Source: Methanoculleus methanifontis
GTDB lineage: Archaea > Halobacteriota > Methanomicrobia > Methanomicrobiales > Methanoculleaceae
Direction: 5' to 3'
Assembly (NCBI RefSeq): GCF_030464365.1
Contig: NZ_VCYI01000013.1
Location: forward strand, 1 to 64,000
DNA: 64,000 bases
This document shows, piece after piece, positions 51,541 through 58,602 of the stretch (its first letter is position 1; the number at the start of each line of letters is the position of its first letter). A program made the position numbers and the translations under genes. The notes under the pieces were generated by a model. It was given only the letters and a program-made list of their open reading frames with translations, made no database searches and was not told the DNA's origin.

Positions 51541-51692
51541 AGTGCCCCGGGAATCGGGGCACGATACGGGGAGAGGGTGTGCTGTGTCGTGGCAGGGGTT
51601 GAGATCTCTGCCGGAGTCGCGATCGACGGGTATCCTGCAGGTGCGCCCGGAGAGCATCAACGGCTATATGGTTTTGAGGAGGAACAGTGATC

Positions 51693-53324
51693 ATGGGATC
51701 CCCGAAGGGGCAGGTCACGAACAGGGATGTTGCCGAACGGCTCGCGTTCATGGCCCGCCTGCTCGGGATCGCGGGGGATGACCGGTACCGGATCGCCGCC
51801 TACGAACGGGCGGCGCGACAGATCGACCGTCTCTCCTTCCCGGTCGCCGGACTCGATGAGGAAAAACTCACCCATATCCCGGGGATAGGAGACAGGATTG
51901 CCGGGCAGGTCCAGGAGATCGCCGCCACCGGAACGTTCGGGGAACTAAAAGACCTGCAGGCGGCCATACCCGGATCGGTCGTTGAACTGCTCGGCGTTAC
52001 CGGGGTGGGGCCGAAGACGCTCCACATCCTCTATAAGAAGCTCGGGATCCGGACCCTGGACGACCTGGAGCGGGCAGTGAAGGGGCACCGGCTCAGGGCG
52101 CTCTCCGGGTTCGGAGCAAAGACGGAGGAGACAATCCGGAGAGGTATCGAACAGTTCCAGAAGAGGTCGAACCGGATGAGCCGCCCGCAGGCCGACGCGG
52201 TGCTCGCGGGCGTGGCGGAGGCCCTGCCGGACGGCCGGTACACGGTTGCGGGGAGTTACCGGCGGGGCGCGAGCACTGTAGCCAGACTCGCGATCGTCGT
52301 TGCCGGTGACCGGAGCGAAGCCGCAGGCCGCATACCCACCGATGCCGGGGTAGACATCCGGTTCACCGAGCCCGGCCGGTACGGCACGGCGCTCCTCTGC
52401 GCCACCGGCTCGGCCGGGTTCCTGGAGAGGCTCGGGCAGTTAGCGACCGAACAGGGCTACCGGCTCGCGCCCGAAGGGCTCGTGGACTCTGCGAGCGGGC
52501 GGCTGCAGGAGTTCGCAAGCGAGGAGGAGGTCTTTTCGTTCCTCGGGATGGAGACGATTCCGCCGGAACTCCGGGAGAACCGGGGCGAGATCGAACTCGC
52601 TCTCCGGCACGCCCTCCCCGACCTCGTCGATCTCTCCGATGTGCGGGGCGACCTCCACGCCCACACCACATGGAGCGACGGCCGCCAATCGCTCGAAGAC
52701 GTGGCGGAGGCGGGGGACAGAAGGGGCTACGAGTACATCGTGATCACCGACCATTCCTCAAGGGTGCGGCCCGAAGCCCTTGCAAAACAGCAGGCCGAGA
52801 TCGAGCGTATCAACCGGCGGCACGACTGCCGGCTTCTCGCCGGGAGCGAAGTGGACATCAAAAGCGACGGCACGCTCGGATACGAGAACAGGGTTCTCGC
52901 CGGCCTCGACCTGGTGATCGCCTCCGTCCACTCGGGGTTCTCCCAGGACCAGGACGTCCTGACCCGGCGTATCCTCACCGCAATGGAAAACGAGCACGTC
53001 GATATCATCGGCCATCCCACCGGCCGCCTGATCGGCCGCAGACCGGCGTATGCCGTCGACCTCGAACGTGTCATGAAACACGCGACGGCGACGGGGACGG
53101 CCCTCGAGATCAACGCGTCGCCCCACAGGCTCGACCTTGAGGATATTTATATCTGGCATGCCAAGAAGGAAGGAGTGAAACTGGCTGCAGGAACGGATGC
53201 CCATAGAAACGGCGAGTTTACAAATATGCGATACGGTATAACTCTAGCGCGCCGGGGCTGGTGCACCCCGGACGACGTCTTGAACACCCTCTCTCTATCC
53301 GCGCTGCTGGAGTGGACGGCATGA
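51693..53324 (+). CDS. PolX-like HhH/PHP protein with degenerate polymerase site (copy 2)
   Basis: 543 residues with the same order as the PolX at 32705: N-terminal helices, HhH motifs (HIPGIGDRIAGQVQEI, GVTGVGPKTLHIL), palm-like region, PHP domain. In the palm, AGSYRRG (G187-S188) is kept but the following DxD metal ligands are missing (VARLAIVVAG instead of GDVDIL), so polymerase activity is very unlikely. PHP motifs are intact: HAHTTWSDG, TDHSSR, SVHSGF, GHPTGR, EINASPHRLDL, TDAH. GAGGAGG at 51676-51682 supports ATG 51693 (or GTG 51687). Stop overlaps the next gene as ATGA. Confidence 0.85.
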   Translation: MGSPKGQVTNRDVAERLAFMARLLGIAGDDRYRIAAYERAARQIDRLSFPVAGLDEEKLTHIPGIGDRIAGQVQEIAATGTFGELKDLQAAIPGSVVELLGVTGVGPKTLHILYKKLGIRTLDDLERAVKGHRLRALSGFGAKTEETIRRGIEQFQKRSNRMSRPQADAVLAGVAEALPDGRYTVAGSYRRGASTVARLAIVVAGDRSEAAGRIPTDAGVDIRFTEPGRYGTALLCATGSAGFLERLGQLATEQGYRLAPEGLVDSASGRLQEFASEEEVFSFLGMETIPPELRENRGEIELALRHALPDLVDLSDVRGDLHAHTTWSDGRQSLEDVAEAGDRRGYEYIVITDHSSRVRPEALAKQQAEIERINRRHDCRLLAGSEVDIKSDGTLGYENRVLAGLDLVIASVHSGFSQDQDVLTRRILTAMENEHVDIIGHPTGRLIGRRPAYAVDLERVMKHATATGTALEINASPHRLDLEDIYIWHAKKEGVKLAAGTDAHRNGEFTNMRYGITLARRGWCTPDDVLNTLSLSALLEWTA

Positions 53325-53911
53325 TCTACCGGTTCTACGAGAAGATCCTCCTCCGCGATCTCAGGACGCTCCCCGAGCACATCTGCTTCATGATCACCGA
53401 GCAGGATATGCTCGATGCGCCCGGCAACCTCTACCTTGCCGCCGGGTGGTGCCGCGACCTCGGGGTCGGAAGCGTCATGTTCCACATCAGCACCGCCGAC
53501 CCCGCCCGGCTGGAACAGTGCCTCCCGCGGATTCGCGAGGTATCCTCGATCGCGCGCCTGACCCTGCACTACCGCGACGAAACGGAGGTCGGCGGCGAAG
53601 GCATGAATGTGACGGTGGCGATCGGCAAGAGCGGCAGGGAGGAGATCGCCGGCTGCGTGAGAAGGATGGCCGAAGACGGGGTGGACCCGGCATCGGTCGA
53701 CGAAGACCTGCTGGAGTCGTATCTCACCTTCAAGTATGAGCCCGATCTCGTCATCAAGACCGGCGGCGACCACCTGACCGATTTTCTCATCTGGCAGTCG
53801 GTCTACTCCGAACTCTTCTTCCTCGATGTCAACTGGGCGCTGCTCAGGAAAGTGGATTTCCTCCGGGCGCTTCGTGACTTCCAGTCCAGAGCCCGGCGGT
53901 TCGGGAAGTAA
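53321..53911 (+). CDS. NgBR-like non-catalytic cis-prenyltransferase subunit
   Basis: 196 residues, shorter than normal cis-prenyltransferases. The C-terminal half is clearly this family (EPDLVIKTGGDHLTDFLIWQ, SELFFLDVNWALLRKVDFLRALRDF) and ends in RRFGK, the RxG motif needed for activity. The N-terminal half lacks the DGNRR substrate-phosphate motif: the segment aligned to it reads CFMITEQDML. This is the pattern of NgBR/Nus1, which pairs with a catalytic partner. The catalytic partner with the opposite pattern is at 54384-55163. Role: chain elongation of polyprenyl diphosphate for glycan carrier lipid. Start overlaps the PolX-like stop. Confidence 0.75.
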   Translation: MIYRFYEKILLRDLRTLPEHICFMITEQDMLDAPGNLYLAAGWCRDLGVGSVMFHISTADPARLEQCLPRIREVSSIARLTLHYRDETEVGGEGMNVTVAIGKSGREEIAGCVRRMAEDGVDPASVDEDLLESYLTFKYEPDLVIKTGGDHLTDFLIWQSVYSELFFLDVNWALLRKVDFLRALRDFQSRARRFGK

Positions 53912-53938
53912 GCCGACAGTAGAGGCCAGTAACAATGT

Positions 53939-54018
53939 CTCACGCGAAGTGCGACTTCCCCGCAGGAAGTTGCTATACCTACATCCCGGACTTCGCGGCT
54001 TCGCGCTCTTCGCGTGAG
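53939..54018. repeat. MITE-like palindromic element, copy 3a
   Basis: Perfect terminal inverted repeats CTCACGCGAAG (53939-53949) and CTTCGCGTGAG (54008-54018) around a hairpin ACTTCC(CCGC)AGGAAGT. 80 bp, no coding potential. Confidence 0.75.
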
Positions 54019-54044
54019 ACTTTGTCATTATCCTTGTATGTTGC

Positions 54045-54360
54045 CTCACGCGAAGCCGCGAAGGACGCGAAGATCGGTCATCCGAGAGGAGCTCTCCTTC
54101 GCACCTAGCGGTGCTCATGCTCCCTCCCCGCGGAGGAGGTCGCACTTCGAAACCCTTCGGGTTTCTCAAACTCCGTTCCTACGGAACATCGCACTTCGCA
54201 CCTAGCGGTGCTCATGCTCCTGCCCTTCGGCCAGTCGCACTTCGCACCTAGCGGTGCTCATGCTCCTGCCCTTCGGCCAGTCGCACTTCGCACCTAGCGG
54301 TGCTCATGCTCCTGCCCTTCGGCCAGTCGCACTTCGCGGCTTCGTGCACTTCGCGTGAAG
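54045..54360. repeat. MITE-like palindromic element, copy 3b, with expanded hairpin modules
   Basis: Ends CTCACGCGAAGCCGCGAAG (from 54045) and CTTCGCGTGAAG (to 54360) are inverted. Inside is a chain of small hairpins: GCACC(TAGC)GGTGC, CTCC/GGAG, GAAACCC(TTC)GGGTTTC, GTTCC(TAC)GGAAC, separated by TCGCACTTCG and GCTCATGCTCC spacers, followed by the tandem array at 54189-54326. Confidence 0.75.
54189..54326. repeat. Three tandem copies of a 46-bp hairpin unit
   Basis: Identical copies at 54189-54234, 54235-54280 and 54281-54326. Each consists of TCGCACTTCG, the hairpin GCACC(TAGC)GGTGC, the spacer TCATGCTC and the imperfect hairpin CTGCCCTTCGGCCAG. A partial fourth copy (TCGCACTTCG) follows. 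The exact identity suggests recent expansion. Confidence 0.85.
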
Positions 54361-54383
54361 CCACGCCGGCGTTGAGGTAACCC

Positions 54384-55163
54384 TCACGCCCGCCCGGCCA
54401 CGCGCTCTTTCAGGCGCATGCGCTGGTCGTAGACCCGCATCGCCCGCAACAGATCGATCTTCCTGAACGCCGGCCAGAAGGGGGCGCAGAAGTAGACGGC
54501 CGACTCGTGACCGTTCGCGAGCCAGGGGAGGAAGTTCGAGGTCCGGCAATCGTTGCCGGTACGGATGATCAGGTCGACGGGAGGGATGGGCGCTCCCCGG
54601 TTAAGGTGGCCCTCAACGGTCGCGGGGTCGATGACCGCCGGGTCGATGGCGCCCTCCCTGACCTCGCCGAGGATCGCCTGGGCGGCGTGCACGATCTCGT
54701 TCCGGCCGCCGTAGGCGAGCGCGATGTTGATGAAGTAATCACTGTAGTGCCGGGTCGCTTCCTCCGCCGCATCGATGGTCGCGAGGAGGTCGGCGGGGAG
54801 GAGAGACCGATCCCCGATCATCCGCACCCGGATGTGGTTTCTGCGCACCCGCTCGTCTTTCAGGATCGCGGTGAATTTCTCCTGGAAGAGGCGAAAGAGC
54901 GCCGCAAGCTCGGCGCTATCCCTCCGGAAGTTCTCGGTGGAGAAGGTGTAGAGCGTGATGTGCTGCACGCCGAGTTCGCAAGCCCAGTCGAGAACCTGCT
55001 CCGTCGCGTCCGCCCCGAGCCGGTGGCCGACCGCCGTATCGAGCCCCTGCTCCCGGGCATACCGGCGGTTTCCATCCTGGATCACCGCAACGTGCCGGGG
55101 AACGTGTTTCACCTGCCACTTCAGGTAACGCTCGTAGAGAGGCTCAATTCCCGATCGCAGCAT
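54384..55163 (-). CDS. uppS: Undecaprenyl/polyprenyl diphosphate synthase (catalytic cis-prenyltransferase subunit)
   Basis: 259 residues from ATG 55163. Conserved VAVIQDGNRRYAREQG with catalytic Asp30, GHRLGADATEQVLDWACELGV, LYTFSTENFRR, and LIIRTGNDCRTSNFLPWL. Adds cis-isoprene units to make the polyprenyl carrier for protein and surface glycosylation. The C-terminus (MRLKERVAGRA) lacks the RxG motif normally present in homodimeric enzymes; the short subunit at 53321 has it. Start shares one base with the upstream radical SAM stop (TGATG). Confidence 0.9.
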   Translation of the reverse strand: MLRSGIEPLYERYLKWQVKHVPRHVAVIQDGNRRYAREQGLDTAVGHRLGADATEQVLDWACELGVQHITLYTFSTENFRRDSAELAALFRLFQEKFTAILKDERVRRNHIRVRMIGDRSLLPADLLATIDAAEEATRHYSDYFINIALAYGGRNEIVHAAQAILGEVREGAIDPAVIDPATVEGHLNRGAPIPPVDLIIRTGNDCRTSNFLPWLANGHESAVYFCAPFWPAFRKIDLLRAMRVYDQRMRLKERVAGRA

Positions 55164-56173
55164 CAGAGCGGCGTCACCTCGACCACCATGCCGCCGTTCG
55201 GGTAACGCTCGACAACGTACTTCCTGCCCGGCAGCCCGGCACCGTGCTCGGCAAGAACCCACCACGCCATCTCGATCCGTCCCTCACAGACTGCATACTC
55301 ATCGTCATCAAACTCCTCCAGGAAACCGTCGACGGCACTTTCCGGCTCGAACAACCCGTATACGACGGTTCCGTCATCCGTCACCTCCTCGAACGGACGC
55401 GCAGTATTGGCAGCGATCCGCTTTAACCGTTCCCGTAACTGGACAGAGTCCTTGAAGACCGATGAGCAGAAGTGGACTTTCGGGTCGCCGACGAGTTTCT
55501 CCGCCCACTGGCGGGCACCCTTCACGGCGTTGTGCAGCCCGTCATCGAGCTCGAACCCGCGTTCGCGCATGGCAGCGGCGCAGGTCTCGCCCCACTCCAG
55601 CTCGTTGATGTTGAGGAAATCGAGGAGGGGGAGCGCGGCGGCAAGGTCCTCGATCCCCGGGAGCGCCGGCACCTCGATGCCGATGAGGAAGCCCATCTCC
55701 CGGGCGAGAGCGGCTGACCCGGCAAAATCGGTCTCGAGGATCTTCGGCCAGACCTCATGAGGCGGGTGCAGCCGGATCTCGTCGACCAGCCCCTGCAGGC
55801 GCCGGAGCATGGCTTCGTCCGGCGCGAGCCCGGTGTAGAGATGGATCTGGTGATCCGGGCCGAAGTGCTCCTTGAGAGCCCGGCAGTACTCCACCACCCG
55901 GTCGAGTTCAATCAGCGGTTCGCCGCCGGTGACACCGGTCCCGAGAGCGCTCATGCTCTCCGCAACCTCGATTGCTTCAGACGGCGACGAGACCTGCCGT
56001 TCGTTTGCAAACACCACGTCCCGGCCTTTTCGCTCACGTGAGAGCGGGCAGTACCAGCAGGTGCGGTGACACCGGCCGGTCACGAAGAGGACCATCTTCG
56101 CTCCCTGGTGGCAGAGGACGCACCCCGGCGAGAGAAACTGCCCAACGGGAGGTACTCCCGATTCCTGTGCCAT
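55163..56173 (-). CDS. Radical SAM protein, unknown function
   Basis: 336 residues. Radical SAM cluster motif CHRTCWYC (CxxxCxxC) near residue 35, SAM-binding GGEPLIELD (about 83-91), and an additional N-terminal CVLC pair at the start of the protein. The C-terminal ~100 residues (VVYGLFEPESAVDGFL, YAVCEGRIEMAWWVL) resemble no named domain to me. It runs into uppS with one-base overlap, so it may serve isoprenoid or glycan biosynthesis, but the reaction is not known. ATG 56173 is a good start. Confidence 0.8.
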   Translation of the reverse strand: MAQESGVPPVGQFLSPGCVLCHQGAKMVLFVTGRCHRTCWYCPLSRERKGRDVVFANERQVSSPSEAIEVAESMSALGTGVTGGEPLIELDRVVEYCRALKEHFGPDHQIHLYTGLAPDEAMLRRLQGLVDEIRLHPPHEVWPKILETDFAGSAALAREMGFLIGIEVPALPGIEDLAAALPLLDFLNINELEWGETCAAAMRERGFELDDGLHNAVKGARQWAEKLVGDPKVHFCSSVFKDSVQLRERLKRIAANTARPFEEVTDDGTVVYGLFEPESAVDGFLEEFDDDEYAVCEGRIEMAWWVLAEHGAGLPGRKYVVERYPNGGMVVEVTPL

Positions 56174-56355
56174 AGCTGTAGCATTAATGGGGCGGCGGAC
56201 GTGAAAAGGTTTGACGGTACAGAGAGTGAGGCAGGGGAGAGGCAGGCAGGCCGGTAAGTGGCTGTATCGGAGATGGTTTCCGGTTTCCCCATCGATACAC
56301 GCAGGGTGCCGAACAATAGAGACATATAGGCTCCATACAGAGAATTACCTTGACA

Positions 56356-56962
56356 ATGCCACCCCGCGCGCGCGATGACGGCCTCTCCGAGGTCGTCGGT
56401 TTCGTCCTGATTCTCGCTCTGATCATCGTAGCACTCTCGCTCTATCAGGTCTACGGGGTTCCTGCGGCCGGGAGAGAGAACGAGATTGCGCACATGAACC
56501 AGGTGAAGGACCGGTTTGTCGATTACAAGAGTGCCCTCGACTCGCTCTGGGTGAACGAACGCAACGGGGTTCTCCTCCGACCCGGTGGGGCCAGGGGTGA
56601 TACCAGGAATGACAGCGACCCCGACCCCAACGCCTGAGAGTATCGTGACCATCGATCTTCCAGAAGAAATACCAGCGAAAGATGCAGAAATCTTTGCAAC
56701 GATCACATCGAACCAGACAGAGCATGTCCACATGATCCTCTATAACTATGATGTGTTATCGAATAACGAGGGGATAAAAAATGCCAAATTAGAGGGGCTT
56801 GTCATGACACAGACCGATATTGAGAACATCTTCACCTCAGGAGAGTTAAAAATTGGGAATCTCGGAACTCCAGGCGGCACCATTGCAGTGGTGGTTATCG
56901 CTTACGATGAAAATAACACTCCCATTGCATCGATAACAAAGATGGGAACCCTGCAGGGGTAA
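56356..56962 (+). pseudogene. Frameshifted type IV pilin-like gene
   Basis: 56356-56637 starts with an archaeal pilin signal and helix (DGLSEVVGFVLILALIIVALSLYQV) and continues NEIAHMNQVKDRFVDYKSAL, like longer archaeal pilin-related proteins, but the frame is lost around 56580. A second frame continues from there (SSDPVGPGVIPGMTATPTPTPES...) to 56962 with a beta-rich tail (IFATITSNQTEHVHMILYNYD). Either a frameshift in one gene or a fusion of remnants of two pilin genes. It may still make the truncated first part. Directly upstream of the next pilin-like gene. Confidence 0.5.
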
Positions 56963-56967
56963 TTGAA

Positions 56968-58602
56968 ATGTCCGGCGACACCGCCGTCTCTGACCTCATC
57001 GGTGTCATGGCACTCATCGCCGTCTTCGTGACGGCGGCGGCGATCCTCGGGGTGACGCTCCTCTCCAGCCCGCCCGGCGACGCAGCGCCCGCGATGCTCG
57101 CCCGCAATGTGACAGTGGACGGGAACCTCTCCATCGCCCACGACGGCGGCGACCCGCTCGTGCGGGGGCATTTCGCGATCCTCATCGACGGCGTCGACCG
57201 GACGGATGACTTCAGCCTCGCCGATGCTCCAGGAGACGAACACGACACCTGGACGTCGTGGGAGACCGGGCAGGTCCTCGTCCTCAACGACGATATGCCC
57301 GAGAACGCCCACATCCAGATCGTCGCCGAGGGCGTGGGCCGCACCGGCAGCGACTGGCTCCTCCACGATATAGGAGAGGGTATGCCGGCGCCGACGACAC
57401 CCACGGCGACACAGACAGTAACGCCCACGCCAACACTGACCCCAACGCCTACACCGACACAGACGGCAACACCCACACCAATCCCCCCTGTCGCAAACTT
57501 CACCGCCAACGTCACCATCGGTACCGCTCCTCTCGCGGTCCAGTTCACTGACGAGAGTACCGGCAACGTGACCGCCTGGCTCTGGGACTTCGGCGACGGC
57601 AGCACGTCAACCGTGCAGAACCCGCCCCACACCTACGTGACCGCCGGCAACTACTCCGTGACGTTGACCGCAAGCAACGCCTACGGGACGAGCACCCTTA
57701 CGAAACCGGACTACATCCGGGTTACGAAGTCCTTCATCAACTTCATCATCGACGAGAACGTCGTCATCTACGGCAACGCACTCCAGTTCAAAGGAAAAAC
57801 GGTCAACGGCACCGGCGCAACCATCGTCATCACCGGAGGGCTGGACACAGACGACTTCAACGAAGGTGCCTCTATCGCCGTATCGGACATCTACATCGAC
57901 GGTGATACCACCCTCGACGAAGGGAGCGCCGGCCTCGGGTCGCCAGAAGTTCCCGGAACCATCTATGTCAGCGGCGATCTTGCGCTCGAAGACGGAAAAA
58001 GACACATCTACGGCAATGTATATGTCGCCGGTGATTTCCGCCTGAAGGACGCGAGGATCCACGGTGATGTCTACGTCGATGGAAACCTCACGCTGGACTG
58101 GACCCCCTGGATAGCGCCGGATGCACACATCTACTACACCGGGAAGATCACGACCCCCTCCAATTACGACAACAGCGATGCAACCAGCATCCTTGCAAAA
58201 TGCATCCACCGGGCAACGGTGCCGGGATTCACCATGCCGGACCAGGAGATGCCCCCCACGAAACCCGCTGACTGGTATGCGGCAAGAGAGTATGTCTCAG
58301 GCGGAGAACTGACGAGCGGTATGAAGATATTTACTGACAGTTACTCCTCCACCGTCTGGAGGCCCACAGCAACCAATGTCGTCATCATCGCACGCACCGG
58401 CGATATAACCATAACAGGAATGGGAGGAAGCTCGGTAACCGGCGTCTTCTTCGCCCCCAACGGGAAGGTGACGTTTAGCGGTAACTCCTTCGAAGGAGTC
58501 GTGATCACCCGCGACGGATTCTGCGTCGAGAGCGGCGGGACGACAGTTGTCTTCAGGAACCTTGAGGAGTATATCGCCGATCCTGCGGATTACCCCTTCT
58601 GA
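56968..58602 (+). CDS. Pilin-like secreted protein with PKD domain and polymer-forming-type beta domain
   Basis: 544 residues. Class III signal with pilin-type helix (VSDLIGVMALIAVFVTAAAILGVTLL), a ~110-residue archaeal pilin beta region, a Thr/Pro-rich linker of about 40 residues, a PKD domain (about 180-255, VANFTANVTIGTAPLAVQF, LWDFGDGSTS), then ~280 residues with repeated short beta strands (IYVSGDLALEDGKRHIYGNV YVAGDFRL...) like polymer-forming/bactofilin-type or DUF7305-like parallel beta domains, with N-linked sites. Probably surface or pilus-associated; the combination is unusual. Confidence 0.75.
   Translation: MSGDTAVSDLIGVMALIAVFVTAAAILGVTLLSSPPGDAAPAMLARNVTVDGNLSIAHDGGDPLVRGHFAILIDGVDRTDDFSLADAPGDEHDTWTSWETGQVLVLNDDMPENAHIQIVAEGVGRTGSDWLLHDIGEGMPAPTTPTATQTVTPTPTLTPTPTPTQTATPTPIPPVANFTANVTIGTAPLAVQFTDESTGNVTAWLWDFGDGSTSTVQNPPHTYVTAGNYSVTLTASNAYGTSTLTKPDYIRVTKSFINFIIDENVVIYGNALQFKGKTVNGTGATIVITGGLDTDDFNEGASIAVSDIYIDGDTTLDEGSAGLGSPEVPGTIYVSGDLALEDGKRHIYGNVYVAGDFRLKDARIHGDVYVDGNLTLDWTPWIAPDAHIYYTGKITTPSNYDNSDATSILAKCIHRATVPGFTMPDQEMPPTKPADWYAAREYVSGGELTSGMKIFTDSYSSTVWRPTATNVVIIARTGDITITGMGGSSVTGVFFAPNGKVTFSGNSFEGVVITRDGFCVESGGTTVVFRNLEEYIADPADYPF

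Follow-up and report, generated by a model that had tools for sequence, protein, structure and literature searches.

The window analysed here is a 64,000-nucleotide stretch of the archaeon Methanoculleus methanifontis (contig NZ_VCYI01000013.1, positions 1 to 64,000 of the forward strand), in which two genes of the cis-prenyltransferase superfamily converge on a gap filled by repeats. The locus comprises the following genes and features, in window coordinates:

51687–53324, plus strand: PolX-type DNA polymerase/PHP gene that immediately precedes the short gene; a neighbour only
53321–53911, plus strand: short, NgBR-like non-catalytic cis-prenyltransferase subunit (196 aa), assigned from its PF01255 match and motifs
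53897–53905, plus strand: C-terminal RxG codons (R193-F194-G195) read from the sequence, followed by K196 and the stop
53912–54383, no strand: dispersed repeat, built of 46-nt units and inverted repeats, that separates the two converging genes and has 71 matches genome-wide
54384–55163, minus strand: long, DHDDS-like catalytic cis-prenyltransferase subunit without RxG (259 aa), assigned from its PF01255 match and motifs
55062–55076, minus strand: catalytic DGNRR codons (D30–R34) read from the sequence, the motif being invariant in the homologue alignment (A4)
55163–56173, minus strand: gene for a radical SAM protein, immediately preceding the long gene and overlapping it by 1 base (TGATG); a neighbour only

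Both proteins score above the curated cut-off of the superfamily profile PF01255 (27 bits), and no other PF01255 gene occurs in the window's genome, which is 99.9% complete. The short gene starts with an ATG at 53321, in a 4-bp overlap with the stop of the PolX gene, and encodes a protein ending in SRARRFGK-stop; its profile match is confined to model positions 104–219 (85.5 bits, E 5e-24), and DGNRR is absent from its 196 residues. The long protein matches model positions 1–216 of 219 (221.2 bits, E 2e-65), and because the match ends at 216, the positions that hold RxG are missing. Its R201, R207 and S209 correspond to E. coli R194, R200 and S202. The short protein thus presents the features of an NgBR-type non-catalytic subunit, namely no DGNRR and a C-terminal RxG followed by one residue, and the long protein those of a DHDDS-type catalytic subunit, namely DGNRR and the IPP-binding R, R and S with no C-terminal RxG. 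Neither combines DGNRR and RxG in one chain as a homodimeric UppS does. The original prediction had described the two proteins as complementary halves of a heteromeric cis-prenyltransferase, one lacking DGNRR and ending in RRFGK, the other carrying DGNRR at D30 and lacking RxG; its coordinates are exact and the sequences bear out both descriptions.

We examined this partition in an alignment that combined E. coli UppS with distinct homologues of the two proteins, 175 short and 161 long (archaeal). The chain ends exactly in RxGx-stop in 172 of the 175 short proteins, and in the remaining three the R of RxG is replaced by K (two) or T (one). The prediction had named in advance, as one result that would overturn it, a C-terminal RxG that a better alignment of the long protein would bring out, and none appeared: 0 of the 161 archaeal long homologues have RxG in register with E. 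coli R242-F243-G244. In some long proteins, tails such as RIRAGE, RRRSG and ARRG were considered as candidates and rejected as lying out of register (by one residue in tails such as RIRAGE or RRRSG) or in the variable tail. The residues equivalent to E. coli D26, N28 and R30 are kept in all 155 long proteins that cover the region and replaced in the short ones; R194, R200 and S202 are kept in every long protein aligned, and in the short proteins a K usually stands in place of R194, and the loop with R200 is shorter by one residue. A comparable division of E213 (E. coli numbering) between the subunits was rejected, the glutamate being kept in 175/175 short and 159/162 long rows, the latter including E. 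coli.

The human enzyme offers a structural precedent for a terminus of this kind. The C-terminus of human NgBR (NUS1) reads R290-L-G292-K293; the glycine and neighbouring backbone bind the substrate phosphate, the one residue that follows RxG reaches R37 and R85 of DHDDS through its carboxylate, and a terminus one residue longer or shorter lowers activity (PMC7573591). The window pair shares with NgBR/DHDDS the split into a catalytic and a non-catalytic chain and, on the latter, an RxG followed by exactly one residue. It differs from the human pair in that the short protein has no N-terminal membrane segment, its first helix spanning residues 2–13 and its first strand residues 20–26, and in that the long protein lacks the C-terminal tetramerisation domain of DHDDS and has a two-residue insertion after E220, one that E. 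coli UppS lacks. The window protein begins directly with the fold, and the archaeal short proteins are of a soluble type. The homodimeric UppS of E. coli (IspU), for its part, shares its fold and all catalytic residues with the long protein and its RxG with the short one, but holds DGNRR and RxG on a single chain.

AlphaFold2 models of each single chain, built from phylum-wide alignments, reached a mean pLDDT of 92.7 for the long and 86.6 for the short protein. In Foldseek searches, the best PDB matches of the long model were human DHDDS chains (6z1n_A and 7pb1_A, E 6e-22), and the short model matched cis-prenyltransferases generally, DHDDS and NgBR chains included (7pb1_B, TM-score 0.72 by target length). 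At the level of sequence profiles, human NUS1 aligns to residues 12–196 of the short protein (E 5e-10), and most bacterial enzymes align to it only from about residue 85 onward. By whole-chain sequence comparison and by Foldseek E-value, bacterial homodimeric enzymes nevertheless give better scores with the short protein than NUS1 does, and the short protein is therefore best described as NgBR-like in pattern, not as an established NgBR orthologue. Low model confidence is concentrated at residues 150–170 of the short and 211–220 of the long protein, which, to judge from the models, may be surfaces that depend on the partner.

Closer relatives of known function are found in Methanosarcina mazei. 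According to PMC8131916, two of its paralogues, MM_0618 and MM_1083, act together as a heteromeric enzyme with C45-50 products, a finding credited there to Emi et al. 2019, and the third, MM_0014, makes C- and O-prenylated products. One genome in our sample (G402) encodes a protein that, its vector-derived start aside, differs from MM_0014 (PDB 7caq) by a single residue, and it is thus M. mazei or a very close relative. Its other cis-prenyltransferases number only two (L208 and L209), one a short protein ending in RRYGK and the other a long protein with DGNRR. The window proteins are 34% (short, E 9e-37) and 49% (long, E 6e-89) identical to these. In a tree of 66 proteins, a single branch sets all short sequences apart (SH-aLRT 99), another does so for all long sequences (SH-aLRT 90), and the MM_0014-type proteins form a third group (SH-aLRT 100); each window subunit groups with its M. 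mazei partner. The two pairs accordingly share the same two clades and the same division, a short protein without DGNRR and a long DGNRR protein without RxG. They differ in that the M. mazei genes lie far apart and are accompanied by MM_0014, whereas the window genes are convergent neighbours and the sole cis-prenyltransferases of their genome. MM_0014-type proteins belong to the same superfamily and likewise lack RxG, but are homodimers of a separate clade with a C-terminal TLGG; neither window protein has that terminus or falls in that clade, and the type is absent from the window's genome.

As side observations, third cis-prenyltransferases of the MM_0014 type with the TLGG end also occur outside Methanosarcinaceae (L248 in G008 and L247 in G199). 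In the set of genomes around G218 and G384 (loci L232, L246, L243 and L249), one genome encodes two long, one short and one MM_0014-type protein; in its relative G384 the short gene is intact and a long copy on contig 103 is broken by several stops.

Across Halobacteriota, PF01255 matches were recovered in 244 of 247 genomes, mostly two in each. The three genomes without a PF01255 protein (G204, G213 and G222) all belong to family f12 and are 86–91% complete. Within Methanomicrobiales, nearly every one of 199 genomes searched, from 38 genera and six families, has exactly two matches. The two subunits occur together in almost all of the Halobacteriota genomes sampled, so the pair is ordinary there, and the few genomes with one subunit only are mostly fragmented or incomplete assemblies. 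Two genomes of family f15 (G207 and G216) were considered as cases without the short protein and then discarded, a diverged copy ending in RRFG being found in both. A natural single-subunit case, which would serve as a test of whether the long protein regains RxG, was not found among the sampled genomes.

Homology, motif partition, co-occurrence, purifying selection, conserved gene order and predicted folds support the interpretation that the short and long proteins together make up a single heteromeric cis-prenyltransferase of the NgBR/DHDDS type, to which the short one contributes RxG in trans, a reading to which we assign a probability of roughly nine in ten. The pattern originally proposed agrees with the sequence families, the motif partition, the phylogeny and the comparison with M. 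mazei, and with the predicted folds as far as single-chain models speak to it; the long model matched DHDDS best, NUS1 aligned to residues 12–196 of the short protein, and the M. mazei subunits proved 34% and 49% identical to the short and long proteins. In the mechanism we propose, the long subunit would supply the catalytic pocket, in which the aspartate and arginines of DGNRR would serve the allylic substrate and R201, R207 and S209 would bind IPP. The short subunit would have kept the cis-prenyltransferase fold and the dimer surface while losing the catalytic motif, and its RRFGK tail would cross the dimer interface and complete the long subunit's active site, in the way that NgBR serves DHDDS. 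Such an enzyme would probably make the polyprenyl diphosphate from which the glycosyl-carrier lipid of archaea derives, a product of C45-50 in M. mazei. For the window pair itself, we infer the physical heterodimer, its activity and its product.

Three other explanations were weighed against this one. The long protein might be a self-sufficient homodimer, with the short protein acting as a regulator or in a separate function; the catalytic and IPP-binding residues are indeed all intact in the long protein, and human DHDDS alone is weakly active (PMC7573591). Yet the RxG missing in register from every long homologue is kept at the end of nearly every short one, the f15 genomes too have their diverged short copy, and co-occurrence of the two subunits is nearly universal, so that we regard this alternative as very improbable. 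Weak activity of the long subunit alone is possible, as for DHDDS, because all catalytic residues are kept. Alternatively, the pair could be heteromeric but form some other product, a short-chain or side-reaction prenyl compound instead of the glycosyl carrier: chain length cannot be read from these sequences, and a paralogue with C- and O-prenylated products exists in M. mazei (PMC8131916). This, too, appears very improbable, given that the pair provides the sole cis-prenyltransferases of the window's genome and that, according to the same paper, the M. mazei homologues make C45-50 compounds. Finally, that the short gene is a functionless, degenerating duplicate, as the loss of its N-terminal catalytic motif and of much of the allylic-substrate region might suggest, is already refuted by its purifying selection (dN/dS 0.08–0.18 against sister species), by invariant residues along the entire length of the protein in 23 diverse sequences, and by its presence throughout the phylum. 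The long gene is likewise under purifying selection (dN/dS 0.12–0.23 against sister species).

On the heteromeric reading, the two-part design itself is already known from M. mazei and human, and the window pair is its normal form in this phylum. The earlier reference to a heteromeric archaeal enzyme in M. mazei is correct in that it was published there, but such pairs are not confined to that species. The two-subunit arrangement with RxG in trans, as in human dolichol synthesis and in M. mazei, would be the rule in a whole archaeal phylum and not an exception, which bears on a possible archaeal origin of the eukaryotic heteromeric enzyme; structural work would also gain soluble pairs, free of membrane segments, from many species.

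The less expected point is that the tail-to-tail order of the two genes is conserved across much of the phylum. Among pairs lying on one contig within 3.5 kb, 158 of 159 are tail-to-tail, 129 of them in Methanomicrobiales and 29 in ten further families, counts that do not represent independent events. The order spans haloarchaea-like families to Methanomicrobiales and is lost in the Methanosarcinaceae-like family f8. Stop-to-stop distances of 132 convergent pairs show that the genes overlap or stand no more than 50 bp apart in 64; in 23 the 3' ends overlap, by up to 54 bp, which places the RxG codons of the short subunit opposite codons of its partner's tail. Overlaps of 13, 27 or 31 bp are common (L063, L081, L082 and other loci). 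The window gap of 472 bp consists of the dispersed repeat, and only 3 bp separate the genes in some sister species (L034, L043, L045 and L040); the repeat is not conserved and gap lengths vary among sister species. The short gap in these species indicates that the repeat is a recent insertion into an old gene neighbourhood. The original prediction had stressed that the two neighbours lie in different operons, separated by repeat elements. This is true here but is no oddity, the arrangement being conserved and the repeat a local insertion.

In each of the nine wider loci surveyed outside Methanomicrobiales (L272–L280; e.g., L273:6889–8145), the short gene has a gene for a DUF92 integral membrane protein head-to-head with it; in 21 of 21 Methanomicrobiales genomes the DUF92 gene lies elsewhere, usually in single copy. 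The plant phytyl-phosphate kinase VTE6 belongs to DUF92, and for this reason DUF92 may reasonably be guessed to act in the metabolism of polyprenol or dolichol phosphate. By this analogy, DUF92 would be a candidate for a lipid kinase in the carrier-lipid pathway, and one to consider in archaeal carrier-lipid metabolism; a search of the literature on DUF92 in archaea returned nothing useful. More speculatively, the tail-to-tail order may itself be selected, with convergent transcription coupling or balancing the subunits, and may form with the head-to-head DUF92 gene an ancestral Halobacteriota carrier-lipid cluster in which DUF92, perhaps a kinase, acts on that lipid as well. We hold this extension to be possible but doubtful.

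No functional link to the cis-prenyltransferase genes was seen for the PolX and radical SAM neighbours. The radical SAM protein of the window (55163–56173) reached no NCBIfam cut-off, and a gene of similar size, a candidate member of the same family, overlaps the start of the long gene in several other genera (L282, L283 and L285). Beyond it, positions 56350–58602 of the window encode archaeal pilin-like proteins, one of which contains a PKD domain as well as TPT repeats of low complexity.
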